IMG/VR virus record: IMGVR_UViG_3300005466_000079
Location: 1-22,951 of that record
Direction: 5' to 3' (one strand)
Length of the DNA stretch: 22,951 bases
Origin: a virus
Shown: piece after piece, positions 4,386 to 21,256 of the stretch
Layout: the number at the start of each line of letters is the position of its first letter
Position numbering within the stretch: position 1 is the first letter of the stretch
Notes under the pieces: model-generated
The model's input: the letters and a program-made list of their open reading frames with translations, nothing else
The model's database searches: none
What the model was told of the DNA's origin: nothing
Made by a program: the position numbers and the translations under genes

Positions 4386-5350
4386 GAGATTTGCATGTTG
4401 TATGCGGTGGTCGCGGATTTGTCGGACAGGCTCTCATCGCAGACCTGAAACAAAAGGGCCATGAAGTGAAATGCGTATCTCGCGGCCTGGGACAGAATAA
4501 TTGTGGGTGGTCGAGTGAACCGTGGGAAATTCGCGATGGGGTTGAATACGTAAACGCTGACTTGATGAAGCCAGATCACGCAGTCGGAGTGGTTCGAGAC
4601 GCTCGATACGTTTACAACCTCGCGGCGTCCGTGGGCGGGATCGATTTCATTCAGAACAATCGAGCAGCCTGCATGTCGTCAGCGTTGATTAACCTGAATC
4701 TCCTCCGCGCATGCCACCAATTCGGAACGCAGCGATATTTTTTCGCCTCCAGCGCGTGCGTGTATTCGAGCCGGGATTTTCCGATTACGGAAAGTTGCGC
4801 GGAGCCCGCAACCCCGGAAAGAGGATACGGGTGGGAAAAACTTTTTGGCGAGCAAGTTTGCCGAGAATATCGCGAGGCCGGATTTGTCGATACGCGAGCG
4901 GCTCGATATTTCACACTGTATGGCCCGGGCGACGACAAGAAGCACAACCATTTTCCCGCCGAGTTGTGCAAGAAAATCGCTACGGCAAAAATCCTCGCTC
5001 ACAAATCGATTGAGCTTTGGGGCGATGGTTCTCAAGTTCGGTCCCTTTTGTATATTGACGACTGCGTAGAGGGCACTCAAAGGATCATGGACTCTGGCGT
5101 GACGATCCCTCTGAATCTCAGTGGCGCGGAATACGCTTCCACAAATCAAATGGCCGATCTCGTTCAATCGATTGCCGGCACGGACCTCCAGGTGAACTAC
5201 GTTCCGGGAGTTACCGGGGTCCAATCTCGATTCGCGAGCAATGAACGGATTCACCGAGAACTGGATTGGGAACCCTCGACGGGATTGAAGGAAGGGTTCG
5301 AGTGGACTTACCGGTGGTGGTTCGATAAACTTTTGAAGGAGTTGCGTTGA
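4382..5350 (+). CDS. GDP-mannose 3,5-epimerase-like NAD-dependent epimerase
   Basis: A 322-residue extended short-chain dehydrogenase. It has the Rossmann glycine motif GGRGFVG (9-15), the strand/loop NLAASVGGIDFIQ (79-91), the catalytic SSACVY (123-128), the Tyr-x-x-x-Lys pair Y149 and K153 (YGWEK), and the substrate-binding ELWGDGSQVRSLLYIDDCVEG (211-231). The SSAC-Y Cys (C126) and the whole WGDG-Q-RSF/L--ID-CVEG block are hallmarks of GDP-mannose 3,5-epimerase as known from plants and bacteria, which converts GDP-D-mannose to GDP-L-galactose or GDP-L-gulose through C3/C5 epimerisation. A Lys pair at 197-198 could supply the second acid/base residue. It closes the sugar module and probably makes the donor for the upstream transferases. 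A related sugar epimerase or dehydratase cannot be excluded. Confidence 0.82.
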   Translation: MRDLHVVCGGRGFVGQALIADLKQKGHEVKCVSRGLGQNNCGWSSEPWEIRDGVEYVNADLMKPDHAVGVVRDARYVYNLAASVGGIDFIQNNRAACMSSALINLNLLRACHQFGTQRYFFASSACVYSSRDFPITESCAEPATPERGYGWEKLFGEQVCREYREAGFVDTRAARYFTLYGPGDDKKHNHFPAELCKKIATAKILAHKSIELWGDGSQVRSLLYIDDCVEGTQRIMDSGVTIPLNLSGAEYASTNQMADLVQSIAGTDLQVNYVPGVTGVQSRFASNERIHRELDWEPSTGLKEGFEWTYRWWFDKLLKELR

Positions 5351-5376
5351 GGGAGATTTTCTGATAGAGTTTTGGA

Positions 5377-5784
5377 ATGACGAAGGTTTGCAAAAAGTGC
5401 GGTGTGGAAAGAACTCTCGACCGATTTCGAAAGCGGGACGGCAAAAGAACTGAATTCTGTTACGAGAGTGTTTGTAAGGATTGTGTCGCTAAGTCCAAAC
5501 GTGAAAAATATGATCGAGACCCCACCGCACTTAAAATGGCCCAACTCAAATGGAATTACGGAATAACTGAATTTGAATTCAATGGTCTAAGAAAATCTCA
5601 GGACGACAAGTGTGCTATTTGCAGAAGGGAATTTATACCCGGTAGCCTTTGTGTCGATCACTGTCATTTTTCCGGAAAAGTTAGGGGCCTTCTTTGCAAG
5701 CCCTGTAATATGTTCATCGCTTTGATTGGGGAAGACACCTCCGCCCTTGTTAGAGCGATTGAATACCTTCAAAAAAATTCTTAG
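5377..5784 (+). CDS. HNH endonuclease, recombination endonuclease VII type
   Basis: A 135-residue protein with two parts. The N-terminal zinc ribbon uses C5-x2-C8 and C33-x2-C36. The C-terminal endonuclease VII domain has C79-x2-C82, the catalytic DHCH (94-97), GKVRGLLC (100-107) and C107-x2-C110-N111. This is the pattern of the Recombination endonuclease VII family (T4 gp49-like), many members of which are free-standing phage homing endonucleases rather than junction resolvases. The gene sits alone between the epimerase (26-base gap, not coupled) and the capsid leader. It is somewhat more A/T-rich than its neighbours, which fits an independent mobile element. A role in resolving DNA junctions before packaging is the alternative. 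Confidence 0.85.
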   Translation: MTKVCKKCGVERTLDRFRKRDGKRTEFCYESVCKDCVAKSKREKYDRDPTALKMAQLKWNYGITEFEFNGLRKSQDDKCAICRREFIPGSLCVDHCHFSGKVRGLLCKPCNMFIALIGEDTSALVRAIEYLQKNS

Positions 5785-5790
5785 TTGACA

Positions 5791-5859
5791 GTCTTCTAAA
5801 CTCGCGTCACTTCTTTTTGAAGCCTAAAAAGGCTCGCGCTCGCTTCAGCGCGAGAAGAC
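5791..5859 (+). promoter_or_regulatory. Upstream half of capsid leader: competing RNA hairpins
   Basis: This stretch can fold in two mutually exclusive ways. In one, CTCGCGCT (5833-5840) pairs perfectly with AGCGCGAG (5847-5854) as an 8-bp hairpin with a 6-base loop, next to a small GCCT/AGGC hairpin (5822-5833). In the other, GTCTT (5791-5795) plus CTCGCG (5801-5806) pair with CGCGAGAAGAC (5849-5859), an 11-bp stem with a five-base bulge that uses the same 3' arm. A further AGAAGA/TCTTCT hairpin (5853-5869) competes as well. The region could be an attenuator or processing site. No convincing terminator T-run follows, and function is inferred only from pairing. Confidence 0.4.
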
Positions 5860-5870
5860 CTACTCTTCTG

Positions 5871-5953
5871 TTTGGTCGCAGAAACTAAACTCCGCTTACG
5901 CGGACCGAAAACTGAGTCTCGGAACAGACTCTATTCAGTTTAGAAAGACCAAA
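5871..5953 (+). promoter_or_regulatory. Structured leader RNA before the capsid gene (three-way junction)
   Basis: Two perfect 7-bp helices stack around the region: TTTGGTC (5871-5877) with GACCAAA (5947-5953), and CTAAACT (5885-5891) with AGTTTAG (5937-5943), separated by a small asymmetric internal loop. They enclose two hairpins, CCGC/GCGG with loop TTAC (5892-5903) and GAGTCT/AGACTC with loop CGGAAC (5914-5931), giving a three-way junction. The outer stem ends four bases before the ATG at 5958, so any ribosome site (AGAAAG at about 5942-5947) lies inside the structure. This would suit translational control or mRNA stabilisation of the most abundant virion protein. It is not a tRNA: there is no T-arm and no anticodon arm geometry. 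Confidence 0.5.
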
Positions 5954-5957
5954 TTTT

Positions 5958-7256
5958 ATGGCTTTTTTCTGCGATAATCCATCCGATATCTCTGATATTG
6001 CCTCCAAGGACGTGAACCGCATCGTCGGAACCATTGCAAAGGCTCTTGCGGCAAACTCCCCATACATGGGGGTAATCACTGGAGGCACCTTTCCATCGGG
6101 CACTTCTGACGCGATACGCTCTGTTGTGCAAATGCAAGCTGCCCCAGGGGACTCACTTGCAATTCCTACGTTCCTCTGCGATACCGAAATCTGCGGCAAC
6201 ACCGGCATCCAAGACCTCACCGACACAGTGGAGTTTACGCTCCGCCTGGAGTCGTTTCGCGGTCGCGGCCCGAACATCTGCGTCAAGAAAGGCTACAGCG
6301 CCTTCAAGGGCAGCTATGTTATGGCCGAGGACAGCTTGAAAAAGCTCGTCACTCAGTATGTCAACGCTGACATCCGCGCACAGTTGTATCTCCGATCCGC
6401 CTCCAAGTTCACGGCGAACGCCGGATACGACTTCAACAGTCTGTTCACTGGCGGTCTGGAAACCGACCTGGGCGTGAAATTCGCTCCGTTGCTTCCGACA
6501 GGCCCGATGACCTTCAAGGCTCTCCATTACATTGCGCGGTATCTCCGCGAGGTGCTTTTCGGCGAGTGGTATTCTCAGTCCGAGGGCATGCCTCACTTCC
6601 GATTCATCGGAGGTTCCGATCAGGTGGAATATTTCCGCTCTGAAGTCGGAGTCCAAAATGTGATGATCGCTCTTACGACCGGTCAATACAAACTCGGTGA
6701 GACCAGCCTTACGGCTTATTCCTTCGAGCAGTCGCCGGCCTACCGGGGAATTGCTTTCGGCGTGGATCAACGTCCGCTTCGTGCGACGGGATTCAATCCG
6801 GACGGCACACTCGCCCTGGTCGATCCCGTGACCGTGGTTTCGAACCCGGCACGTAACACCGCTTTTGCCAAGCCGAACCCGGCGTGGTTGAACGCGGACT
6901 ACGAAGTCGGTGTTCTGATTGCCGATGGCAGCTTCGAAAGGCTCGTGCCCGAGAAGTATGTCGGCGAAGGTTCCTTCAAATTCGCTCCGCAGTTGCACAT
7001 GGGCGAGCTTGAGTGGCACTACCAGATCGACAACCAATGTAACCAATGGGGGGACTTTGGATGGCACAAGTATCAAATCACCCGGGCATATCGCCCATTG
7101 CGTCCTCAGCACATCATCCCGATCCTCTACAAACGCTGCAAAGCGGACCTGGGTTTGGTGAGTTGCGCGGACACGGCCTCGTCCAGCTTCACGGGCGCTG
7201 ACTCCTTCGTGGAAATCGGCGTGTGCGGCGATGACGAAACGCCAGTGATCCACTAA
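5958..7256 (+). CDS. Putative major capsid protein
   Basis: A 432-residue protein called capsid from position and build rather than from a recognised motif. It lies downstream of a scaffold-like gene, has its own structured leader and its own terminator, and is of usual capsid length. The predicted mix is helix-strand: a helical N-terminus, a long central helix-prone segment (about 121-155, MAEDSLKKLVTQYVNADIRAQLYLRSAS) like an HK97-fold spine helix, then beta-rich segments and an aromatic, Pro-rich C-terminal domain (EWHYQIDNQCNQWGDFGWHKYQITRAYRPLRPQH, 352-385). It holds eight Cys (5, 74, 79, 108, 361, 394, 403, 423), high for a capsid protein. It could instead be another abundant head protein. 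Confidence 0.68.
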   Translation: MAFFCDNPSDISDIASKDVNRIVGTIAKALAANSPYMGVITGGTFPSGTSDAIRSVVQMQAAPGDSLAIPTFLCDTEICGNTGIQDLTDTVEFTLRLESFRGRGPNICVKKGYSAFKGSYVMAEDSLKKLVTQYVNADIRAQLYLRSASKFTANAGYDFNSLFTGGLETDLGVKFAPLLPTGPMTFKALHYIARYLREVLFGEWYSQSEGMPHFRFIGGSDQVEYFRSEVGVQNVMIALTTGQYKLGETSLTAYSFEQSPAYRGIAFGVDQRPLRATGFNPDGTLALVDPVTVVSNPARNTAFAKPNPAWLNADYEVGVLIADGSFERLVPEKYVGEGSFKFAPQLHMGELEWHYQIDNQCNQWGDFGWHKYQITRAYRPLRPQHIIPILYKRCKADLGLVSCADTASSSFTGADSFVEIGVCGDDETPVIH

Positions 7257-7273
7257 GTCTTGAATGACTCGCG

Positions 7274-7306
7274 AGGCGGTCGGGAATAAAACCTCGACCG
7301 CCTTTT
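7274..7306 (+). terminator. Rho-independent terminator after the capsid gene
   Basis: AGGCGGTCG (7274-7282) pairs perfectly with CGACCGCCT (7295-7303) across a 12-base A-rich loop and runs into TTTT (7303-7306). It lies 18 bases after the capsid stop, so the capsid transcript is probably ended or reduced here. The T-run is short, so partial read-through into the next genes is plausible. Confidence 0.85.
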
Positions 7307-7312
7307 CACTAT

Positions 7313-7330
7313 AGACAAAAAACTTTGTCT
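7313..7330 (+). promoter_or_regulatory. Short perfect hairpin AGACAAA/TTTGTCT
   Basis: A 7-bp perfect inverted repeat with an AAAC loop follows the terminator directly. It is too A/T-rich and lacks a following T-run to be a second terminator. It may stabilise the 3' end or take part in control of the downstream leader. Confidence 0.4.
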
Positions 7331-7355
7331 CAAATCCACTTAACACAAAATGATT

Positions 7356-7386
7356 TGTCACAATATCTCACGACGACATTGTGACA
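7356..7386. promoter_or_regulatory. 9-bp perfect inverted repeat, operator-like
   Basis: TGTCACAAT (7356-7364) and ATTGTGACA (7378-7386) form a perfect inverted repeat with a 13-base spacer, so the arm centres are 22 bases (about two helical turns) apart. That geometry suits a dimeric DNA-binding protein, although an RNA hairpin is also possible. It lies in the 192-base gap between the capsid terminator and the gene at 7449, where a promoter is expected. I see no clear -35/-10 pair. Confidence 0.45.
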
Positions 7387-7402
7387 TTGGGGGTGGGTAA
7401 AC

Positions 7403-7431
7403 CGGAGCGGGTGCTCAACACATCCGCTCCG
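7403..7431 (+). promoter_or_regulatory. GC-rich hairpin upstream of the 7449 gene
   Basis: CGGAGCGG (7403-7410) pairs with CCGCTCCG (7424-7431), and the stem can be extended inward by GTG/CAT with one G-T pair. It lies 17 bases before the ATG at 7449 with no T-run, so it looks like a leader hairpin rather than a terminator. It may protect the 5' end of the transcript or mark a processing site. Confidence 0.45.
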
Positions 7432-7448
7432 CAACTTTAGAAAAAATT

Positions 7449-8423
7449 ATGGCTGCTGACGAACTAACATTTAAACCCGGAGACACAGACAATAACCTGC
7501 TTCGAAAAATTCTCGGGACACTCGAAAACGGCCTGGATATTTCGGGCGGAACAATCAACATTCCAGGAGCGATTACCGCTTCAATTGCCGATGGCGCGGA
7601 CACCGCCGAAGGCTCTCGTGCCGATCCAGCCGAAACCAATCCAGCCGCCGTCGCTTCGATTGTTTCTCTGTTGAAGGGAATCCTTACAATCGACACTCAA
7701 TCGAACAGCGGAGTAGCCCAACTCAATACCGCTACCGGGCTCATCAATTCAGCGGCAGTTACAAATCCGGCTTCGAATGCTTCTGTAATCGCAGCCCTCA
7801 AGGGAATTTTGACCGGAGTAAACAGCATAAACACCAATACAGGTGCTCCGGCAGACGCGGCAGTCACCAATCCAGCATCCAGTGCCTCAATTATCGCGGC
7901 GATTAAAGGTCTTCTAACGTTAATTACGACTGGTAACGCCCAACTCGTAACGAATAACAATGTCGGCGGATACACTACGGCAATCAAGGACACTACGGCA
8001 GTAAGTGCTACTCCTGATTATTCGATTGGGGACGCAGTTGGCGGAAAAAGAACACTCACTAACGCGGTTCGAGTTAGCGGTGGAACCGGGGTTTTGGAAT
8101 CGGTTATCCTACTTGATCGAGCAAATCAAAAAGCGGGAATGGAACTTTTCATTTTCGACTCCGATCCAACCGCAGCGACGATCACGGATAATGCAGCTTT
8201 CGTTTTCAGCACTGACGACTTGAAAGTTATCGCCAGGGTGTCCATTTCATCCGGCGATTATGTTACAATCAACAGCAAAGCGGTCGCTGTTGTGAAGGGA
8301 CTAGGCATCGCATTAAAAGCCTCGGGAAGCACCAGCTTATATGCGGCTCTCGTTACTACGGGTGCCCCCAACCTTGCTGCTACGGACGACATTCAATTGA
8401 TTTATGGCATTTTACAGGACTAA
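7449..8423 (+). CDS. Repeat-containing virion structural protein
   Basis: A 324-residue protein, low in aromatic residues and rich in Ala, Thr, Asn, Ser and Gly, typical of trimeric phage fibre or decoration proteins. Three copies of a helix-prone unit, NPAxxASIIxxLKGILT, lie at about 64-80, 106-122 and 141-157, joined by Asn/Thr-rich linkers. The C-terminal part (about 186-324) is beta-rich and compact (GKRTLTNAVRVSGGTGVLESVILLD, MELFIFDSDPTAATITDNAAF) and recalls a domain seen in various phage structural proteins; this is a family impression, not a firm match. It starts at ATG 7449 with only an A-rich stretch upstream. As the first gene after the capsid terminator it is likely a virion surface or fibre component. 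Confidence 0.6.
   Translation: MAADELTFKPGDTDNNLLRKILGTLENGLDISGGTINIPGAITASIADGADTAEGSRADPAETNPAAVASIVSLLKGILTIDTQSNSGVAQLNTATGLINSAAVTNPASNASVIAALKGILTGVNSINTNTGAPADAAVTNPASSASIIAAIKGLLTLITTGNAQLVTNNNVGGYTTAIKDTTAVSATPDYSIGDAVGGKRTLTNAVRVSGGTGVLESVILLDRANQKAGMELFIFDSDPTAATITDNAAFVFSTDDLKVIARVSISSGDYVTINSKAVAVVKGLGIALKASGSTSLYAALVTTGAPNLAATDDIQLIYGILQD
7638..7919 (+). repeat. Three coding repeats, NPAxxASIIxxLKGILT unit
   Basis: Three 17-residue units are encoded at about 7638-7688, 7764-7814 and 7869-7919, spaced 42 and 35 residues apart. The Asn-Pro-Ala start, Ala-Ser-Ile/Val core and Lys-Gly-Ile/Leu-Leu-Thr end are kept in all copies, while the linkers vary. They read as short amphipathic helices, possibly forming a coiled-coil trunk of a trimer. 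Confidence 0.65.
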
Positions 8424-11462: not shown

Positions 11463-12461
11463 TTCAGGGTCGATGACATCTACGACGAAGGTAAGAAAAT
11501 CGTGGGGCAATGCTCCGACGAAAAGTTTTTTCGTTGGTGCGGCGATGTCGTGACCATGACGGCCAACAAAGCCGACTTCGAAGGGTGGAAAGGTTGGATC
11601 GACATCTGCACAGCGGGATGCTCGTGCTCTTCCGGATCAGTTTGCAGTTTTGGCGCGTGTTGCGGAAAACGTTGCGTGACGATGCCGCGAGAAGTCGAAA
11701 CAGTTATCGCGGTCAACATCGGCGGTCAACCGTCTCTCGGATTCGAGCAACTTTTCAATTTCCATCTGAACGGCCCGGGTGACTGCCGCAATTCTTGCGA
11801 TTGGGCGTGGCAGGATCAAGGTCAATGGCACGTAACATATCGCGACTTGATTACACCCGCGCAACTTGTCGTTCACCTTCAAACGCCCGAAGACAATAAC
11901 AAACAGTTCGTGATTTTTGGTTATGACGACAAGGGAAATGTTCTGCGCCGGGAAGTTGGCGGCGTATGGATGGACGGACTTCAACTCCCAACCGTCTTTG
12001 GTTACGCCATCCCTGAAGTTACAGCGCCGAAGGTGGCTCGAATCACCGGACTTTTCAAAGCCGAATCTGTCGGCAGTATGCGTCTTGCAACGACTGATAG
12101 CAACGGACAAAGCGGTGTCAATCTTGGCGTTTACGAGCCCGACGAAACCCTCCCTCAACTGAGACGGATTACCCTCAATCGTCAATGCGGTTGGGTGCGG
12201 GTCGCGTATATCAAAACGTCGCCTATTTTCAAGAGCCGGTGGGATCATATACCGCTCAAGAGTCGCCTGGGGTTCCTTTTGGGACTCCAGGCGCATAAAC
12301 TTTATGCGGCACTCGATTTCGCCAACGCGCACTCGTGCGAAGCTGACGCTGCGCGTCTCGAACTCGAAGCTCAGATGAAACTGGAGCCTCCAACATACTC
12401 GCCGATACAAGTAATCGACCGCAACAACCTTCGTTCGAAAGACGACTACGATATTCGCTAA
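11460..12461 (+). CDS. Putative head-tail connector or tail tube (T7 gp11-like) protein
   Basis: A 333-residue protein with a GTG start backed by a strong ribosome site; the first residues (RVDDIYDEGKKIVGQCSDEKFFRW) form a charged helix and look native. An N-terminal helical domain is followed by a Cys-dense insert (C50, C54, C56, C62, C67, C68, C72), then CVTMPREVETVIAVNIGGQP (72-91), FNFHLNGPGDC and WHVTYRDLITPAQL, a beta-rich middle, RRITLNRQCGWVRVAYIKTSP, and a C-terminal helix (RLGFLLGLQAHKLYAALDFANAHSCEADAARLELEAQ). The pattern recalls a virion protein I have seen in many uncultured podovirus-like genomes. It precedes a nozzle-like gene as gp11 precedes gp12 in T7. The exact role is inferred from this order. 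Confidence 0.5.
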   Translation: MFRVDDIYDEGKKIVGQCSDEKFFRWCGDVVTMTANKADFEGWKGWIDICTAGCSCSSGSVCSFGACCGKRCVTMPREVETVIAVNIGGQPSLGFEQLFNFHLNGPGDCRNSCDWAWQDQGQWHVTYRDLITPAQLVVHLQTPEDNNKQFVIFGYDDKGNVLRREVGGVWMDGLQLPTVFGYAIPEVTAPKVARITGLFKAESVGSMRLATTDSNGQSGVNLGVYEPDETLPQLRRITLNRQCGWVRVAYIKTSPIFKSRWDHIPLKSRLGFLLGLQAHKLYAALDFANAHSCEADAARLELEAQMKLEPPTYSPIQVIDRNNLRSKDDYDIR

Positions 12462-14467
12462 TGGCTGGTGAAAGACTACTCGACTTTGACAGCAGTTGGA
12501 TCGGGGGAACAAATAGTTCCGTTGACCCAAGCCAGTTGCCTTTGGGACAAGCCTGGAGCGCGATTAACACAATCAACATCGGCGGCGTCATCTCCTGCCG
12601 CCCCGGGTATCGTTGCATACTTAAACTCCCAAAAGGAAATCTCCAAGGAGCCGCAATTTTTCGTCCTCTTGTCGGCCTAGAACAATTTCTTTTCGCAGTC
12701 GAGGGTCTGATTTACGTTTCCACCTACCCGTTCAAGGAATTTTCGCAAGTCCCGAATATCCTGTTCTCAACTTTCGCGAAGCAGGTTTTTTTCACTCAGA
12801 CACTTCAATCCGCACGTCGCATTAACCCCGGAGACCTTACCTCCGCCATCGAGTTAATCACTCCCCGCGCAGTCATGATTATGCAGGACGGCGGAGCAAC
12901 CGCGCCGGCATATTACGACGGATCAACATCGGGTCATATTAAGGGATTGCCTTTCGAAACTCCAATTGGCGGCGTGATGCAATGGGTCGGTGACAGACTT
13001 TGGGTCTCGAACGGTCCGGAAGTGGAAGCCAGCGACATTTCAAATCCATTTTCGTTCATCGAACAAATTTACCTCGGAGGAAAGACCAGCTTCAACTTCA
13101 GCCGGGACGTTACCGCGATGTCGAAGACTCCAAGTATCGAATCACCACAATTGATGGTTTTCACCGACGACGACGTTTCATTACTCCAGGCCGACATTCG
13201 GGATCGAAGCCTCTGGCCCACCACAATCGGATTCCAAAAGGAGATTTTGCAGGTTGGATGTTCTTCGGCTCGCGCAGTAACTTCAGAGTCAGGCCGTCTG
13301 AGTTGGTGGTCTAGCGCCGGAATAGTAGTTTTCGACGCGGCATCCGCGAGGGCTTGGACTTCGAGAGCACCTATTCGCGACAACGAAATGTTGATCTCTA
13401 AGAAGTTCCTCAAAGAAGATTTGAGCCAAGTCGCTCTTGGAGCTTTTGGACAGTGGACACTTATTTCTGTTCCTGCCGAAGATGTTTACAACAAACACAC
13501 ATGGGTCTATAATAATGCAAGCTACGAAACTGTCAGCGACGAAGGCGGGCCTACTTGGTCCGGTTACTGGCTCGGGACTCGCCCCGTGGAATGGCTTTAC
13601 GGAGTCATCGCCGGAGCAGAGAAAATCTATCACGTCAGCGCCGATGTGGATGGAGAAAATCGTCTTTGGCAATGCTTCACCCCGGACCGACTCGACAACA
13701 ACTGTCCGATCACCTGGGCAGTTTTCACCCGTGGTTATTTCGGATTGACGAGCAAGACCAAGCCTCCAGGAATCGACTGCCGATATACCTTTGCCGACAT
13801 CGGATTTACGGCTATCGCTGAAGATACCGATATTGGAATTTTTTCGGCCCCAGGCGTGCGCGGAAGCTTCAAACCGATTGCAACTCGAAGAATATCTGTC
13901 GAAAAAGGATCGTTGTCTTTTGATCGAGACATCAACATCAACACAGACCTTTTCGCTTACAAAGAGCAATCGAGGATTCTGCGGACTGAAGACCTGTCTC
14001 AACAGTTCCCCGATGAAGAGTCCGGATCATGCCCGGTCGAGTCGAACCTCAACGATGACAATGAAGAGTCTTTTCAACTTTTGATCGTTGGCCACGGTCC
14101 CGCTACCCTCCGGTGGGTTCGAAGCTTCGCGACTATCGCCCCCGAAGAAGATTTTTCTGGAAGCGCGAAGGCATGCGAGAACGAAGAAGAATTCAACACC
14201 ACTCGATTCGATGGTGAAAGTGTTTTCAATGTCAACTCCGACGAGGCCGAAGCATTGTTGTCCGCGAAGCCACTCAGAATTTTCACTTCGATTCAGACGG
14301 CCTCCGTCAGTCAAAGCGGAATTTCCGCCGTTGGTGTCGGAACAGCCGAATCAATCGTTAACCAGGGCGCAGCCGACAGAGTAGCGAATCGTGTGGCCAC
14401 TCGTGCGGCAGAAATCGAAGTGCAAGCCTTTTCTGAACCGTTTCTTTCACTCGGAATAGGATTCTAA
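12461..14467 (+). CDS. Putative tail nozzle / stabilisation protein (T7 gp12 or P22 gp10-like)
   Basis: A 668-residue protein starting in a TAATG overlap. The N-terminus has FDSSWIGGTNSSVDPSQL (9-26), LGQAWSAINTINIGGVISCRPGYR (28-51). This G--NS-DP-L----A--N------ISCRPGY signature opens many beta-propeller-like phage tail proteins of the gp12/gp10 class that form the nozzle below the portal. The rest is mostly beta-strand with repeated blade-like units, such as GGVMQWVGDRLWVSNGPEVEASDISNPFSF and LGAFGQWTLISVPAEDVYNKHTWVYN, with an acidic stretch and an Ala/Val/Arg-rich C-terminal helix. Length is in range for T7 gp12 (about 790) to P22 gp10 (about 470). It would form the distal tail tube that guides DNA into the cell. 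Confidence 0.62.
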   Translation: MAGERLLDFDSSWIGGTNSSVDPSQLPLGQAWSAINTINIGGVISCRPGYRCILKLPKGNLQGAAIFRPLVGLEQFLFAVEGLIYVSTYPFKEFSQVPNILFSTFAKQVFFTQTLQSARRINPGDLTSAIELITPRAVMIMQDGGATAPAYYDGSTSGHIKGLPFETPIGGVMQWVGDRLWVSNGPEVEASDISNPFSFIEQIYLGGKTSFNFSRDVTAMSKTPSIESPQLMVFTDDDVSLLQADIRDRSLWPTTIGFQKEILQVGCSSARAVTSESGRLSWWSSAGIVVFDAASARAWTSRAPIRDNEMLISKKFLKEDLSQVALGAFGQWTLISVPAEDVYNKHTWVYNNASYETVSDEGGPTWSGYWLGTRPVEWLYGVIAGAEKIYHVSADVDGENRLWQCFTPDRLDNNCPITWAVFTRGYFGLTSKTKPPGIDCRYTFADIGFTAIAEDTDIGIFSAPGVRGSFKPIATRRISVEKGSLSFDRDININTDLFAYKEQSRILRTEDLSQQFPDEESGSCPVESNLNDDNEESFQLLIVGHGPATLRWVRSFATIAPEEDFSGSAKACENEEEFNTTRFDGESVFNVNSDEAEALLSAKPLRIFTSIQTASVSQSGISAVGVGTAESIVNQGAADRVANRVATRAAEIEVQAFSEPFLSLGIGF

Positions 14468-15681
14468 TGGATACCATCCTCGATTTACTCTGGCTGAGAA
14501 TTCCGCCGATCAACTATGTAACGCCTCCGCTCTGCGAATTCATTTTCAGCGGCAGCGGCAGTGGTTCATTCGTCATCGCGACTCACCCGAGCCCGTGCAA
14601 AATAACGGGGGTTCGTATCGAGGGCAACACACTTTTTTGGGACGCACTAACCGCCGATAGTTGCAGCGCGGGAGTCGGAGCGATTTGTTACAACGTGTAT
14701 CATGCGACACTCGGATCGAATTCATACTCAGTGGTCGCTGAGTGCATCCCAGGAACCGAATATGATGTTACCGGTCAAACAGGATGCTTCCGAGTTACCG
14801 GAATCACGACCGAGGGAGAATGCGACTTGAGTGATCCGGCATGTATCGAGGGACCACCGCCCGAAGAATTTTTCAGCGAGGTTTGGAGAAATCAAAACGA
14901 TGCGGGGTTCGTTATTCTCGACACAGTTTCGGGAGAAACCGAATCAACTCCGGAACTCTTGTTGAATATTAACTCAGTCCCGAGTGATATACGGCTTAAT
15001 TGGGACTCCCTCACTTACGTTGACGCAACGGCAGGTATGGCGGCTGGCGATATTTGGTGTTACAAAGTTCGGTCCAGCGTTCCATCAGTCGGAAACTTCT
15101 CGAACGAAGCATGCGCGGTGATGGATCAATTTTTTCCGTTTAACACTGGAACTGTAGTAAACCATCCAACATGGCAAATCGCTTTTGGTGATTTCCAGCC
15201 CGCCGATAACGTGGATGTCACCGACATAAATCTTTCGGGACTTCGAGCAGTGATCGGAGGGAATCTCTTCCTTGATGCGCTATTAGTGATAAACACTCTC
15301 GATTTGAGCAGCCTCATACTCGTAACGGGAAGCTTATTTTTTTCGTCGGAGGGACTTATTGGTGGAACGCTCACAGTGCTGTCTCTCCCGTCTCTCGTAA
15401 ACGTAAACGGAAACTTGTTTTGCGATAATACCATGTTCACTTCGGTATCTATCCCGAACCTAATCATGCACAATGGCGGAACATACGCCTTCGATTTTAA
15501 CGCACTCGACATCCCTTCAGTAGAGGGAATCCTTGCTCGTGGTATTGCTTCCGGGGTAACATCAGCGACCATCTTCCTTGATGGAGGAACGAACGCGGGA
15601 TTATCGTCATTATCCGCCCAAGGACAGGCTGATTACGCAACTCTTATCGGTCTCGGAAATACGGTAAGCATAAACCCCTGA
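14467..15681 (+). CDS. Fn3-like plus leucine-rich-repeat-like virion protein
   Basis: A 404-residue protein coupled by TAATG to the nozzle-like gene. After a short N-terminus it has two Fn3-like beta domains, each with paired Cys: about 46-126 (ITGVRIEGNTLFWDAL ... CYNVYHA ... CFRVTGITTEGECD) and about 137-220 (IRLNWDSLTYVDA ... WCYKVRSS). From about 225 to 340 it has repeated 20-25 residue strand units rich in Leu, Ile, Val and Asn (VDVTDINLSGLRAVIGGNLFLD, LDLSSLILVTGSLFF, LSLPSLVNVNGNLFCDN, VSIPNLIMHNGG). These read as a right-handed leucine-rich-repeat or BspA-like solenoid. Such surfaces bind proteins or sugars, so a host recognition role is likely, though unproven. Confidence 0.58.
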   Translation: MDTILDLLWLRIPPINYVTPPLCEFIFSGSGSGSFVIATHPSPCKITGVRIEGNTLFWDALTADSCSAGVGAICYNVYHATLGSNSYSVVAECIPGTEYDVTGQTGCFRVTGITTEGECDLSDPACIEGPPPEEFFSEVWRNQNDAGFVILDTVSGETESTPELLLNINSVPSDIRLNWDSLTYVDATAGMAAGDIWCYKVRSSVPSVGNFSNEACAVMDQFFPFNTGTVVNHPTWQIAFGDFQPADNVDVTDINLSGLRAVIGGNLFLDALLVINTLDLSSLILVTGSLFFSSEGLIGGTLTVLSLPSLVNVNGNLFCDNTMFTSVSIPNLIMHNGGTYAFDFNALDIPSVEGILARGIASGVTSATIFLDGGTNAGLSSLSAQGQADYATLIGLGNTVSINP

Positions 15682-15699
15682 TATGCGTCACTGATTGAT

Positions 15700-16905
15700 A
15701 TGGCCTTACAAGCTACAAACCTCGTCATCCAGGCATCGCAACTGCCCGCAACATTCGCCGGCAAGCCGAACGACCTTTTCCGAGCAATGATCGAACGCAT
15801 GCGGATCGTTTCGCCGTCCGGGACCGGTTTTTTCGTGATTGGTGACAATGAACCACCGAACAATCAAGGCCCCTGGTTGAAGGGCGGAACTCAATGGTGG
15901 GTTTGGGATGAAGACTTGAAAAGATACGTCCCACTCGATGTCAGCGAGTCAGAGACAAAATGGTATCAAATCGGAGCGACGACCCCGACAACTTCCGAGC
16001 CTCCGCTTTGGCTCAGAACGACCGCGAACGCGACGGAAGCTAAACCGAGTTTCGGAACACCCGTTGCTTGGTATCTTTTCGATGGAACGACCTGGATACA
16101 GTTACCAGTATTGATTGAAGACCGGTCAATTACCCAGGCGAAACTTCATTGGAATACCCCATTTTTCGGGACGGCATCCGGGACCGATAATTACGTTATT
16201 TCGTTCAGCCCAAACACCGGATTTACTTTGGGCGACGGAGCAGCGACTTCGATTTTGTTTCTGGTGAAATTCCCGAACACAAACACGGGACCGGTGACTC
16301 TCAATGTCAATTCCTCGGGACCGATCCCGGTGAAAAAATTCACCAGCGAAGCAATCGTCGCGGGAGAGATTGTCGCCGGATCGATTCACGCGGTTTCGTT
16401 CGACGGAACGAATTATCAAATTCTAAGCTCGATCCCCAATCGCGAGTCGGGAGTTTTGTTGAATGTCGTCACAAAAATTTCGAATGTAGCTTTTAGCGGA
16501 GCACTGATGTTTCCTTACGACAACACGCCTCCGGAAAACACTGAGGGAAACCCATATAATGATTTGGAGACCGTCTATTCAGCGGAGAGGGCCAACTCAA
16601 AGTTGATTGTGGACGTGAAATTACAAGCGTCCACGAATAACGGAACCTATTTTATTACGGCTCTATTCAAAGACTCAGACACGAACGCTTTGGCAGCTAG
16701 TTCAACCTCCATTGTTGCTATCGAGGACGAGCAAGCCACTCTAAGAGCGATTTTCGATGTGGGGGATACGTCTCCGCACACTTACAAAGTTCGATTCGGG
16801 CCGTCAGCTTCGGCTGCGACGGTTTTCATAAATCAAAACTCCACTGCACCGACCTTCGGTGGAACGTTGATGTCGTCACTTACGATTATGGAGGTGTCAG
16901 CATGA
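15700..16905 (+). CDS. Tail fibre protein, first of a paralogous pair
   Basis: A 401-residue protein. Residues 1-150 are a conserved mount (LQATNLVIQASQLPATF, GKPNDLFRAMIERMRIVSPSG, EPPNNQGPWLKGGTQWWVWD, then a WYQ/PPLWL/AWYLFDG series), and 153-243 are a common phage fibre module (GTASGTDNYVISFSP ... VKFPNTNTGPVTLNVN ... EIVAGSIHAVSFDGTNYQIL). The C-terminal 150 residues (about 250-401) form a beta-rich, C1q/TNF-like head ending in LTIMEVSA. A near-copy of the first two parts recurs in the next gene with a different head, so this is a modular receptor-binding protein. The ATG follows the upstream stop by 18 bases with no clear ribosome site; the next gene starts within an ATGA overlap. Confidence 0.7.
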   Translation: MALQATNLVIQASQLPATFAGKPNDLFRAMIERMRIVSPSGTGFFVIGDNEPPNNQGPWLKGGTQWWVWDEDLKRYVPLDVSESETKWYQIGATTPTTSEPPLWLRTTANATEAKPSFGTPVAWYLFDGTTWIQLPVLIEDRSITQAKLHWNTPFFGTASGTDNYVISFSPNTGFTLGDGAATSILFLVKFPNTNTGPVTLNVNSSGPIPVKKFTSEAIVAGEIVAGSIHAVSFDGTNYQILSSIPNRESGVLLNVVTKISNVAFSGALMFPYDNTPPENTEGNPYNDLETVYSAERANSKLIVDVKLQASTNNGTYFITALFKDSDTNALAASSTSIVAIEDEQATLRAIFDVGDTSPHTYKVRFGPSASAATVFINQNSTAPTFGGTLMSSLTIMEVSA

Positions 16906-18362
16906 GTCTCCAAAACACAAACTTGATTATCCAGGCGTCACAGCTTCCGGCGACGTTCAAGGGTAAGCCGAACGATTTGTTCCGCGCAATGGTGGAACGA
17001 ATGCGGATTGTTTCAAGTTCCGGAACCGGATTTTTCGTAATCTCCGACACAGAGCCGCCGAACAATCAAGGCCCCTGGCTGAAGGGCGGGACTCAATGGT
17101 GGGTCTTCGATCCGGACTTGAAACGATATGTCCCACTCGACATCAGCGAGAGCGAAACGAGGTGGTATCAGGTTGGCAACAGCATCCCGACCACGACCAG
17201 CCCTCCGTTGTGGTTGAAAACAACCGCTACAGTTCCGCCTAGTTCTACCGTGGCGGAACCTACGCCGGGAACACCGATTGCATGGTATCTTTTCGACGGT
17301 AGCAACTGGATTCAACTTCCGGTGCTCATCGATGATCGATCCATTACGGCAGCGAAGCTGAATCCAACGGCGAATTTTTACGGCACCGCGTCCGGAACCA
17401 ATAACTATACCCTGGTGTTCACTCCGGACACCCCGTTCAATTACGGCAACGGATCAACCGAAGCTTTTGTCGGTTACGTTAAGTTCACCAACGCGAATAC
17501 CGGAGTCTCAACACTCAGCCTCAACGGTGGGGGCGGCGTTACGATCAAAAAGGCCGTCAACATGGACTTGGTTGCCGGCGAAATCAAAGCGGGCTCCGTT
17601 CATCTTCTCGTTTATGACGGACAGTTTTTCCAAATCCTTTCCGAGTTGCCTTCGACTGAAATCGATCCCGGCCCGGTTGGTGGAATTGGAAACTCTGAGG
17701 GACTCCTAATTACAAACGATTTGGTTACTCCAGATGACATCCTGGTAATCACTGCCAACAGTGTTTTGCTTGAGGACTCAATGGGTGATGACCTTCGAAT
17801 CAATACGGTCAATCTCGATTTGAATCTCACGCTTTCCGGCCTGGGCGGTCTCGATACGGGATCATCGACGGCGAATACATGGTATTACATTTGGTTGGTG
17901 TCGGATGGGACAACGATCAACGCGGTGTTTTCTCTCAGCGATTCGAACCCGACTCGACCAGCCGCTTATCGATTTATCGGACTCTTCGGAGCGGTTTTCT
18001 CCGACTCCAGCAACGACCTTACGAAGATGTGGCAGACGGCGAGGAAAACCTATTTGATCGTGTCACCTATCGTCAAAGGTCCAGACGGCTTCCAGGATTT
18101 TTCAACTGTTGTTCCGCCGATTGCGATAACTGTTTTCGGATCGACAACTCCAATAGGAGGACCGAATGCCGTTGCAGATTTGGTGATGTCAGGGGACGCG
18201 AACCTTGTGGGTGGGTTCACTTTTCATTTGCAAGATGTCGCCGGCAACACCACGGCGGTCGGAGGGTTTTTCGAGGTGCCGATGATTACTCCTCAGAATG
18301 TTTACGCAACCTCGACCGGGACACTCGGGGTGAGTTTCGATATTTCCGGATTTACGATATGA
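16902..18362 (+). CDS. Tail fibre protein, second of a paralogous pair
   Basis: A 486-residue protein. Its first 90 residues match the upstream fibre in 78 positions, and similarity continues more loosely to about residue 250 (GTASGTNNYTLVFTP ... VKFTNANTGVSTLSLNGGG ... EIKAGSVHLLVYDGQFFQIL). From about 257 it is unrelated to its twin: a longer beta-rich head (LLITNDLVTPDDILVITANSVLLED, LNLTLSGLGGLDTGSSTANTWYYIWLVSDG, YLIVSPIVKGPDGFQDF) that fits a second receptor or a second position on the virion. The shared mount suggests that both attach to the same virion site and may compete or form mixed complexes. It is coupled by ATGA to the acetyltransferase gene. Confidence 0.7.
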   Translation: MSLQNTNLIIQASQLPATFKGKPNDLFRAMVERMRIVSSSGTGFFVISDTEPPNNQGPWLKGGTQWWVFDPDLKRYVPLDISESETRWYQVGNSIPTTTSPPLWLKTTATVPPSSTVAEPTPGTPIAWYLFDGSNWIQLPVLIDDRSITAAKLNPTANFYGTASGTNNYTLVFTPDTPFNYGNGSTEAFVGYVKFTNANTGVSTLSLNGGGGVTIKKAVNMDLVAGEIKAGSVHLLVYDGQFFQILSELPSTEIDPGPVGGIGNSEGLLITNDLVTPDDILVITANSVLLEDSMGDDLRINTVNLDLNLTLSGLGGLDTGSSTANTWYYIWLVSDGTTINAVFSLSDSNPTRPAAYRFIGLFGAVFSDSSNDLTKMWQTARKTYLIVSPIVKGPDGFQDFSTVVPPIAITVFGSTTPIGGPNAVADLVMSGDANLVGGFTFHLQDVAGNTTAVGGFFEVPMITPQNVYATSTGTLGVSFDISGFTI

Positions 18363-18808
18363 GGTTGAATGAGTTGCTAATGCGGGAATATCTGAGCACT
18401 GTTATAGAGGCTAGACAGGATTTGCAAGAGCGTGAACCGGGCGGCTTCGGGAAAATCAACGTGGAATTTTTGGCGGAGACCTGGGCGGGGCTTATGGCAC
18501 AGGGTTCTGGAGTGGCCTACGGCGAAGAGGATTCGGGGAAACCGGTTGGGTTTTTGATTGGGACGCATACTCACGATCCGATGACCGGTATTTTGACCGC
18601 GTTTGAATACTTGTGGGTTCGCCGGAAAGACGCTCCGAAAGGGACCGGAATGAAGCTCCTGAATGAATTTGAATCAGAAGCAAAACTCGCCGGTTGCAAA
18701 CAGGTAGTGGTCGGATGCAATTCTGTGTATAAGCACGAGGCTCTGGCCTATTGGTATTTGCAAATCGGTTTCAAATTGTGCAGTCAATCTTTCCAGAAAT
18801 GGATTTAA
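18359..18808 (+). CDS. GNAT-family N-acetyltransferase
   Basis: A 149-residue protein. The frame is open far upstream (to 17879), but that part lies inside the fibre gene; ATG 18359 gives an ATGA overlap and a normal GNAT length. It has the GNAT core: an N-terminal helix, GKPVGFLIGTHTH (60-71), a strand AFEYLWVRRKDAPKGTGMKLLNEFESEAKLAGC (81-113) holding the acetyl-CoA pyrophosphate loop K94-G-T-G97, QVVVGCN and a final YWYLQIGFKLCSQSFQKWI motif. It would transfer acetyl from acetyl-CoA to an amine. The acceptor (protein Lys, N-terminus or amino sugar) is unknown. Its place among virion genes suggests modification of a virion protein or a host factor. Confidence 0.82.
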   Translation: MRLNELLMREYLSTVIEARQDLQEREPGGFGKINVEFLAETWAGLMAQGSGVAYGEEDSGKPVGFLIGTHTHDPMTGILTAFEYLWVRRKDAPKGTGMKLLNEFESEAKLAGCKQVVVGCNSVYKHEALAYWYLQIGFKLCSQSFQKWI

Positions 18809-18811
18809 TTT

Positions 18812-19783
18812 ATGGGTGATGTCCTCGGATTCGTTGGAACAATCGCCGGAGCAGAAATCTCTGCGGCGGCACAGAGAAATATTGCCAACAAACAAATCGC
18901 GGCCCTCGAACGGCAGCGACAGTTTGTCTATGACCAACTCGATCCAAGCCGACTTGCCAAAGCTGCGGCGGCTGGCGATACCGCAAACGCGAAGGCCCGC
19001 CTGGAGCTTCAGAAACAACTCGATCCCGAGCTTTTCAAGTTGCGTTACGGCGCACAGGCCGGCGTAAACGATGCGCTCGAACAACTGAAGTCCGGAGGCA
19101 CTCAGGAAGTCGCCGGTCAAGCTGTCAAGGAAGCGTTATCCGGTGGAGACGTAGCGGCCCAGGCGAAACAGAAGCTCATCGATGCCGCCCTCGAACAACT
19201 CAATGCCGGCGCGACATTGCCTCCCGATGTTCAGGCGGAACTTGTGAAAGCCGGCCTGGAGAAATCCGGAATGGTAACAGGCGCGGCTCGATCAAAAGGT
19301 GTCGGTGGTCAGTTGACTAGACAATTACTCGGATCAGGCGGAATCGCGCTCCAGCAGCAACGACAGCAGCAAGCGATGGGTCTCCTCGGTCGCGCACAAG
19401 ATTTGGAAACGCAGCGTTCGCAGCTACTCGGAACGCTTTTCCCGAACCTCGCGACGACTCAACTCAACGTGTTGAAAGGAAACGAAGGCGCACTCGCTTT
19501 TTCGAACGAGCTAATGCCGAATGCGGGACTCACTGGAAAAGACATCGTGAATCTCTGGCTCGCTCGCGTGGGCGCGAATAGCTCGCTTGAATCGCAGAAA
19601 ACTCAAGCAGGGTATCTTGGCGGGGTCAATAGTGCAGCCGCTCTTCAGCAAGGTTATGGCGCAGCTACTAGCTATGCGGCGAACGCTTTTCCGACGACCT
19701 ATCAGTTGATTAAGCAAGGTCAAAACAGTGGAAACGGAGGTTATACAAAACTTCCGGACGGTAGTTACGATTGGGGAACTTAA
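18812..19783 (+). CDS. Internal virion / DNA ejection-like protein
   Basis: A 323-residue protein starting three bases after the acetyltransferase stop. It is Ala, Gln, Leu and Gly rich and almost wholly helix-forming. It begins with a hydrophobic, membrane-active-looking segment (VLGFVGTIAGAEISAAAQRN, 4-23), continues with Glu/Gln/Lys helices (KARLELQKQLDPE, QAVKEALSGGDVAAQAKQKLIDAALEQLNAGA), then a Gln run (LQQQRQQQ, 188-195) and a Gly/Ser/Tyr-rich C-terminus. This composition and its position after the fibres match the T7 gp14-type ejection proteins, which leave the capsid with the DNA and enter the host envelope. No family motif was recognised. Confidence 0.5.
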   Translation: MGDVLGFVGTIAGAEISAAAQRNIANKQIAALERQRQFVYDQLDPSRLAKAAAAGDTANAKARLELQKQLDPELFKLRYGAQAGVNDALEQLKSGGTQEVAGQAVKEALSGGDVAAQAKQKLIDAALEQLNAGATLPPDVQAELVKAGLEKSGMVTGAARSKGVGGQLTRQLLGSGGIALQQQRQQQAMGLLGRAQDLETQRSQLLGTLFPNLATTQLNVLKGNEGALAFSNELMPNAGLTGKDIVNLWLARVGANSSLESQKTQAGYLGGVNSAAALQQGYGAATSYAANAFPTTYQLIKQGQNSGNGGYTKLPDGSYDWGT

Positions 19784-19789
19784 AAACCT

Positions 19790-21256
19790 ATGGCATTTGG
19801 ACCAGCAGAACCAGACGTGCAGCTTCGACCCGAGTTATCGACAAATCGTGTGCCCGTGGATTTTAATGTCGAACAGAACGCGGTCGCGCAATTGGCGGAT
19901 GCGTTCCGTAAAGGCGTTGTTACGGCTGACGATTTGATTGAGCGATACGGCACTCTCGCGAAGACGAGGGACAAAGCGCAAATCACCGGTCTGGAGGAAT
20001 TTATTTCTCCTGAATCGATTCAGACGAGGCAGAACCAAGTTCATGCAGCGAATACAGAAGCGATTCTTCGATCCTCTCCGGAATATCAACAAGCGAAACA
20101 AGCAGAATTTATCGACCTTCGAAACAAAGCTGAGGGCGGGGATTACAATGCAATGCGTCAAGCGATGTTGACGAAAGGTTTTCCGATTTCCACTTTCGAT
20201 GTCAAAGCGGGATGGACCCCCGACACGATTAAGCGGACCCAGGATGAGTTTCAAGAATTTGTGAACTATAATGACAACGTGGAATCCGCGAAGGCTTTTA
20301 TTTCCAGTGCTAAGGCGGTTCCCGTCAAGGATACAAAGACGGTAATCCAGGACGGAAAACAAAAAACCGTAATTACGGAAACGCCTCAGCATGTAAATAG
20401 TTTCGGACAGGTAGTCCCCGAAAAAGATTTAGCAGACGCTTACAAATACGCCACGATGACTCCGAGTATGTGGCGGCACATGGGCAAGCCTCAGTTTGCC
20501 GAATTATCGAGGATTAAGCCCGGAAAATTTGGCGGGGGAATGACCGGTCCATTGAGCGAACCTGAAGTAACTGCAAAAACAACTGCTGTGACTACACCAA
20601 CTGTTGTCGAACCCGAACCTTCGGCGATTGTGACCGAGACTAAGGAAATTCCCGTGGACAAATCAACCGTAAAGGCACCTACAGAAGCGCAACAACGCGC
20701 CGAATTAGCGTTGGCGAGGTTTTCTTCGTCCAACGACGTGTTCAATTATTTGCAACAGCGTGGATACGATCCGACCACAGTTACGTCCTGGGTGAATAGT
20801 TTTCTTCCCGAGATTCTGAAGAGCGGTGATCGTAAAACTTATGACGCAGCCGTTGATGCCTGGTCCCAAGGTTTGCTCCGGCTTGAGTCTGGTGCCGCGA
20901 TTTCGAAGCAAGAGAAAACTTGGTATGACAAAGCATTTTTCCCACAAGTGAACGACCCACCTACGGTGGTTGAAAACAAATCGAGGATGCGACGGGACAT
21001 CGAACGAATGGTTGGAGAAATTGCACAGGCCGGAGGAATCGATTCTCCGGAATCGAAAGCACAAGTGGCCCGCATTGCGGACGAAGCCAAAAAGGTCTAT
21101 TCTGAAGCCGGTGCTGCGGCTGGCGTTCCGCCAAAAGGTGCAGCTACACGTTTCCGTCCTCAAACTGGAGGTGCTAATGTCGCTCCAGTCACCACACTTT
21201 CCGGAGGGACAAATCTTACCTACGTTCCCGGAGTGGGCTTCAAATACGTAAAATAA
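19790..21256 (+). CDS. Internal virion / ejection-like protein with ESGAAI motif
   Basis: A 488-residue protein, mostly charged and helical. An N-terminal half (21-235) is rich in Ala, Asp, Gln and Lys. A Thr/Pro/Val/Glu-rich linker follows at about 255-300, then a second helical domain. In it GLLRLESGAAISKQEKTWYDKAFFPQVNDPP (about 373-403) followed by a Lys/Arg-rich helix recalls a conserved segment of phage internal virion proteins. The C-terminus turns Gly/Ala/Thr-rich. It starts six bases after the previous gene and overlaps the next by TAATG. The likely role is a component of the ejectosome or the head interior. Confidence 0.55.
   Translation: MAFGPAEPDVQLRPELSTNRVPVDFNVEQNAVAQLADAFRKGVVTADDLIERYGTLAKTRDKAQITGLEEFISPESIQTRQNQVHAANTEAILRSSPEYQQAKQAEFIDLRNKAEGGDYNAMRQAMLTKGFPISTFDVKAGWTPDTIKRTQDEFQEFVNYNDNVESAKAFISSAKAVPVKDTKTVIQDGKQKTVITETPQHVNSFGQVVPEKDLADAYKYATMTPSMWRHMGKPQFAELSRIKPGKFGGGMTGPLSEPEVTAKTTAVTTPTVVEPEPSAIVTETKEIPVDKSTVKAPTEAQQRAELALARFSSSNDVFNYLQQRGYDPTTVTSWVNSFLPEILKSGDRKTYDAAVDAWSQGLLRLESGAAISKQEKTWYDKAFFPQVNDPPTVVENKSRMRRDIERMVGEIAQAGGIDSPESKAQVARIADEAKKVYSEAGAAAGVPPKGAATRFRPQTGGANVAPVTTLSGGTNLTYVPGVGFKYVK

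Follow-up and report, generated by a model that had tools for sequence, protein, structure and literature searches.

Introduction

The conserved N-termini of tail fibres are usually attributed to a shared socket. Phage K1-5 carries two receptor proteins per virion, both held through a common N-terminal anchor; the heads of K1-5/SP6-type tailspikes are enzymes and their socket is a separate adapter protein (PMC5380687). Two paralogous short tail fibre genes per genome are found in the Vequintavirinae, e.g. rV5; the available sections of that account do not mention homogenised N-termini (PMC8594841). In Salmonella phages, two tailspikes or fibres with a conserved N-terminus and a divergent C-terminus provide several receptor proteins, and the excerpts of this study compare the phages with one another, gene by gene, and contain no test for homogenisation within a genome (PMC3728262). 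For the contractile-tailed phage Pa193, the N-terminal third of the tail fibre is described as beads on a string (PMC11042391). A search of the open-licence literature, which matched words and not ideas, found no report of homogenised mounts in paralogous fibres.

The locus analysed here belongs to a soil phage and lies on a virus record of 22,951 bases, hereafter called the window. Its adjacent genes A and B resemble the K1-5 type: two receptor-protein genes with a shared N-terminal anchor and different C-terminal domains. They differ from K1-5 in a mount of about 105 residues and in heads without an identifiable enzyme, and none of the conserved neighbours of the fibres is identifiable as an adapter. 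The presence of two paralogous fibre genes is shared with rV5, and the conserved N-terminus combined with a divergent C-terminus with the Salmonella phages. The phage appears to be of the two-receptor-protein kind known from K1-5, and the new element would be a homogenised mount.

Organisation of the gene pair

A and B probably encode a pair of tail fibres (or spikes) in a single, uncultivated phage (Table 1). The term fibre suits both, because the necks of A (E = 7.3e-6, residues 154-246) and B (E = 1.4e-7, residues 157-250) match the tail family phrog_4900 and the neck of A also matches seven phage records (E = 2e-4 to 7e-4), five of which carry a tail fibre annotation, the other two being listed as hypothetical. 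Since B starts inside the stop codon of A, behind a ribosome binding site in the last codons of A, both are probably made together from one messenger, presumably by coupled translation. The start within the stop codon and the spacing of 7 nt between GGAGG and the start codon of B occur in all three of the window and two divergent pair-bearing relatives, L004 and L009.

Table 1 Features of the tail gene cluster in the window (positions of the window)
Feature	Position	Strand	Remarks
Conserved virion structural protein, 668 aa	12461-14467	+	upstream; related genes in 44 of 47 mount loci besides the window
Second modular tail gene, 404 aa	14467-15681	+	directly upstream; conserved N-terminus, variable remainder
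Putative fibre A	15700-16905	+	ORF of 401 aa
Mount of A	15700-16014	+	residues 1-105; 83 % identical to the B mount over 105 aligned residues
Neck/shaft of A	16015-16443	+	residues 106-248; phrog_4900, groups by gene
Head of A	16444-16902	+	residues 249-401; stop codon 16903-16905
Shine-Dalgarno-like GGAGGTG for B	16890-16896	+	within the last codons of A; kept in the window, L004 and L009
ATGA overlap, B start/A stop	16902-16905	+	present also in L004 and L009
Putative fibre B	16902-18362	+	ORF of 486 aa
Mount of B	16902-17216	+	residues 1-105; groups with the A mount
Neck/shaft of B	17217-17657	+	residues 106-252; phrog_4900, groups by gene
Head of B	17658-18359	+	residues 253-486; stop codon 18360-18362
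GNAT-like acetyltransferase, 149 aa	18359-18808	+	directly downstream, ATGA overlap with B; Acetyltransf_1, E = 4e-4

The predicted structures are poor (mean pLDDT 53.4 for A and 39.5 for B), too poor for a comparison of the head folds. The best Foldseek match of model A is the Pa193 fibre (PDB 9b45, E = 6.6e-4), a likeness which rests on this poor model and has low TM-scores of 0.20-0.23. In a viral fold library 28 entries reach E <= 0.001 with model A, several tail fibres among them, likewise with low TM-scores. Compared with the structure library by sequence, the head profiles gave matches at chance level only (best E = 0.16 for A and 0.39 for B), and the full-fibre profile and the profile of the 668-aa protein gave nothing at E <= 0.1.

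Relatives and neighbouring genes

A scan with the mount profile yielded 47 loci besides the window. The pair is present in four (L003, L004, L008 and L009), while the other 43 carry one mount. L008 and L003 are near-identical to the window, the former with 100 % identity over 11.6 kb and the latter differing over 10.9 kb at two positions, neither of them in the fibres. Through the 668-aa gene 67 further loci were reached (nine repeats left out), comprising 52 with one mount, 15 with none and not one with two; in the mount-less loci the sequence after the 668-aa gene is no longer than 2,037 bases. Taken with L090 included, the 95 single-mount loci form 73 clusters when the mount DNA is grouped at 95 % identity, and in 81 of these loci the sequence continues for at least 1 kb behind the fibre, with no second copy found there. 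Of sixteen records searched whole, G001 and G002 have two mounts each and the other 14 a single one. A single fibre is therefore the usual state among the relatives. When heads were grouped by single linkage, leaving out L003 and L008 as repeats and all rows of 200 residues or less, 39 of 47 rows fell into one type; the A group and the B group have three members each and two rows stand singly.

That most relatives manage with one fibre might mean that one gene of the pair is a decaying or unused copy. This is very improbable, as all six A and B genes are open in the three genomes and the heads of the window and L004 orthologues differ with a pN of 0.35-0.36, well below the pS of 0.76-0.79, which suggests that both heads are in use.

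The 668-aa protein is a candidate for the socket, and the tree of its gene served as genome tree. Viral contigs contain at least 487 relatives of it, several of them on records of about 70-75 kb, and at E <= 1e-3 none of 50,697 phage records matches it; phrog_3287 is matched by 3 of 13 members of the family, which apparently represents a large phage group without cultured members. In the 404-aa gene, conservation across much of the family is limited to the first ~110-140 residues. Its counterpart in L004 (3074-3430) encodes only 118 aa and reaches barely beyond the conserved part. Of the 47 mount loci besides the window, 33 have a relative of the acetyltransferase, and several end too early to include it.

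Some relatives have additional genes in this region. Genes for endonucleases of the GIY-YIG/NUMOD3 type flank the fibre pair in the tail cluster of L009 (3893-4519 and 8856-9530), and one lies in the tail cluster of the sister records L005/L010 (L005, 3733-4464); the window has none among its ORFs from 12461 to 21256. In L040 the single fibre is separated from the modular upstream gene by two extra genes (5308-6994), one without a Pfam match and the other with a weak match only. A protein of 2,621 aa follows the tail cluster in L078 (1004-8869, G001), and its only two matches are families of unknown function. Terminase (PF03237) was found in none of six records. The sole match in the genome collection, with 30 % in an Omnitrophota MAG, is too weak to name a host.

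Similarity between A and B

According to the original prediction, 78 of the first 90 residues of A and B agree and short DNA stretches are identical. The recount gave the same 78 of 90, and 82 of the first 100. DNA identity is 74 % over 300 nt and 72 % over another 92 nt, the longest exact run in the first 300 nt measuring 21 nt, in line with that description. Homology extends beyond residue 90, with ~52-54 % identity over residues 106-248, and similarity ends near residue 248 of A and 252 of B. The heads that follow had been called unrelated after about residue 250, which is borne out by sequence: their best local score was attained by 21 of 500 shuffles, and profile-profile comparison (hhalign) gives a probability of 0.1 %. 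A and B thus appear to combine the same mount of ~105 residues and a homologous shaft with unrelated receptor-binding heads.

Age of the duplication

A recent duplication followed by head exchange had been proposed for the pair. The duplication itself and the different heads on one mount stand, and the high protein identity of the mounts (78 of 90 residues) would agree with a recent event. The silent sites do not: over the first 105 codons of the mount pS is 0.67 and NG86 dS ~1.7, near saturation, and the first 100 codons comprise 47 identical ones, 35 with silent differences and 18 replacements. Moreover, L004 and L009 possess the same A-B pair in the same order and with both heads (A of 404 aa and B of 482 aa in L009), even though these genomes and the window differ from each other by 21-24 % in the 668-aa neighbour, in the tree of which they form one clade (SH-aLRT 99). 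Between L004 and the window A is 62 % and B 54 % identical; the head orthologues are 45-52 % identical to those of the window for A (L009, L004) and 47-58 % for B (L004, L009; 58 % in L009). On account of the saturated silent sites and of the same pair with both heads in L004 and L009, the recent origin was rejected and is almost certainly wrong. Instead, a single fibre was duplicated long ago, before at least three lineages, now divergent, had separated, and neither head has been lost since.

Phylogeny of mounts, necks and heads

When 49 mount rows were placed in a tree, the two mounts of each pair-bearing genome joined each other, with supports of 96/89 in the window, 94/93 in L004 and 99/88 in L009, and grouping by gene is rejected (p-AU 0.026 for A and 0.0375 for B). 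With four single-fibre outgroups all nine by-gene mount trees tested were excluded (p-AU 0.011-0.020). Addition of the A gene of L090 lowered the by-gene p-AU to 0.0039 and 0.0027, but several or most supports then lay below star level.

The same genes behave differently behind the mount. In a test with the six genes the grouping by genome is favoured by 29.3 lnL in the mount protein, whereas grouping by gene is favoured by 42.3 lnL in the neck and by 222 lnL in the head. For all DNA positions of the mount the preference for the genome is 16.4 lnL, the by-gene p-AU of 0.059 being borderline; third codon positions of the mount differ by 0.58 lnL, which is no signal either way. The switch from by-genome to by-gene lies near residue 105-130, and in protein windows of 40 columns the sign flips from columns 90-130 to columns 105-145. 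In the mount, eight columns are fixed by genome, all within residues 3-43 except one at residue 89, compared with one fixed by gene (residue 2); wrong pairings of the genomes yield 0-3 such columns.

In all three pair-bearing genomes the paralogous mounts within a genome are more alike than the orthologous ones, which is the pattern of concerted evolution. The statement is based on three genomes, the window, L004 and L009, of which L004 is a fragment of 6.7 kb.

Heads on other mounts

Both heads were sought in other phages, and both occur on other mounts. Head A was found in L075 and L076; head B in 13 loci at E <= 0.01 (L056-L068, two from one contig), none of which has the mount of the window. 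Several head-B-like proteins of ~250 aa are clustered in larger contigs (L058, L059, L061 and L063), with N-termini unlike this mount. Head B matches phrog_17105 (E = 2.2e-11). Among cultured phages neither head B nor the L009 version of head A has a match at E <= 1e-3; only the neck of A matched there, with the seven records named above. From their occurrence on other mounts it follows that the heads are exchangeable parts, in agreement with the original prediction, but the exchange is old in this lineage.

Exchange of whole modules could by itself produce the phylogenetic pattern, if cassettes of shaft and head of the A and B types moved among phages onto the recipient's own, already duplicated mount. 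The breakpoint at the border of mount and neck would suit such grafting as well as the presence of the heads on unrelated mounts does, and in L090 a neck and head of the A type sit on a mount that is as distant from the A mounts as from the B mounts (its record ends inside A). We nevertheless regard it as improbable. The same two cassettes would have had to arrive in the same order in three genomes, and since these form one clade in the 668-aa tree, vertical descent of the pair is simpler.

Two known kinds of receptor variation were also considered. Mu-type switching by an invertase was rejected, as A and B lie on one strand and the inverted repeats are only short and imperfect (14-24 nt). A serine recombinase (Resolvase domain, E = 9.7e-21) is encoded in L080 at 6776-7594, i.e. 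G001 46776-47594, ~22 kb from the fibres. A diversity-generating retroelement with an Mtd-type target was rejected too: reverse transcriptase (RVT_1) matches in neither of two records, and head B reaches 21.1 bits with the second Mtd domain of Pfam, below the curated cut-off of 24.6.

Cause of the homogenisation

The pair is most likely an old one whose mounts are kept alike in each lineage by occasional gene conversion, while shafts and heads were left to diverge; we consider this reading probable, though well short of certain. Conversion between the neighbouring genes would keep the first ~105-115 codons alike in each lineage. The shared DNA had already been taken for a recombination site between A and B, and the mounts homogenised in all three genomes fit such an exchange; saturation of the third positions in the mount means that no recent conversion tract can be seen. 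Enzymes of possible use in recombination, namely an endonuclease VII (5377-5784), an exonuclease and a RuvC-like resolvase, are encoded by the genome.

The saturated third codon positions also keep parallel adaptation to one socket viable. Here the same socket would drive the same residues independently in both mounts, and selection would be coupled without any exchange of DNA. This fits a by-genome signal which is strong in the amino acids and absent at third positions, and it fits the small number of shared residues, eight columns mostly within residues 3-43. Against it stand the fairly sharp switch to by-gene grouping at residues ~105-130 and the choice of codons. Where mount residues are shared, the same codon is used in 130 of 243 cases by paralogues, compared with 199 of 442 by orthologues and 180 of 434 by cross pairs, a bootstrap difference of 0.101 (95 % 0.038-0.164); the corresponding difference in the neck, 0.028, is not significant. 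After correction for codon usage the excess of mount over neck is 0.072 (P 0.062) and suggestive only. Codon sharing thus leans towards old gene conversion, short of proof, and independent adaptation of the two mounts is rather unlikely, yet the most serious competitor of conversion.

Biological meaning

The advantage of conversion would lie in a continued fit of both fibres to one and the same tail socket as it evolves. The shared mount would fix them at one site, leaving the unrelated heads to contact different receptors. We infer from the genes that both proteins are in the virion, that conversion is the cause of the homogenisation and that there are two receptors; two receptor specificities for this phage are plausible.

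The pattern is sharper than a conserved N-terminus, as two mounts co-vary within a genome while the same genes show ordinary descent in their shafts and heads. Conversion, if it is the cause, accounts for the long coexistence of two receptor proteins without loss of fit in either, and the region of residues ~105-130 then becomes a natural breakpoint for reading modular fibre exchange. As a general rule, multi-receptor phages may rely on continuing gene conversion, confined to the mount, to keep the mounts exchangeable; the anchor would then evolve as a single sequence, with the heads insulated from it. This extension is tentative and, in our estimate, has somewhat less than an even chance. If true, concerted evolution would be a maintenance mechanism for multi-receptor virions.
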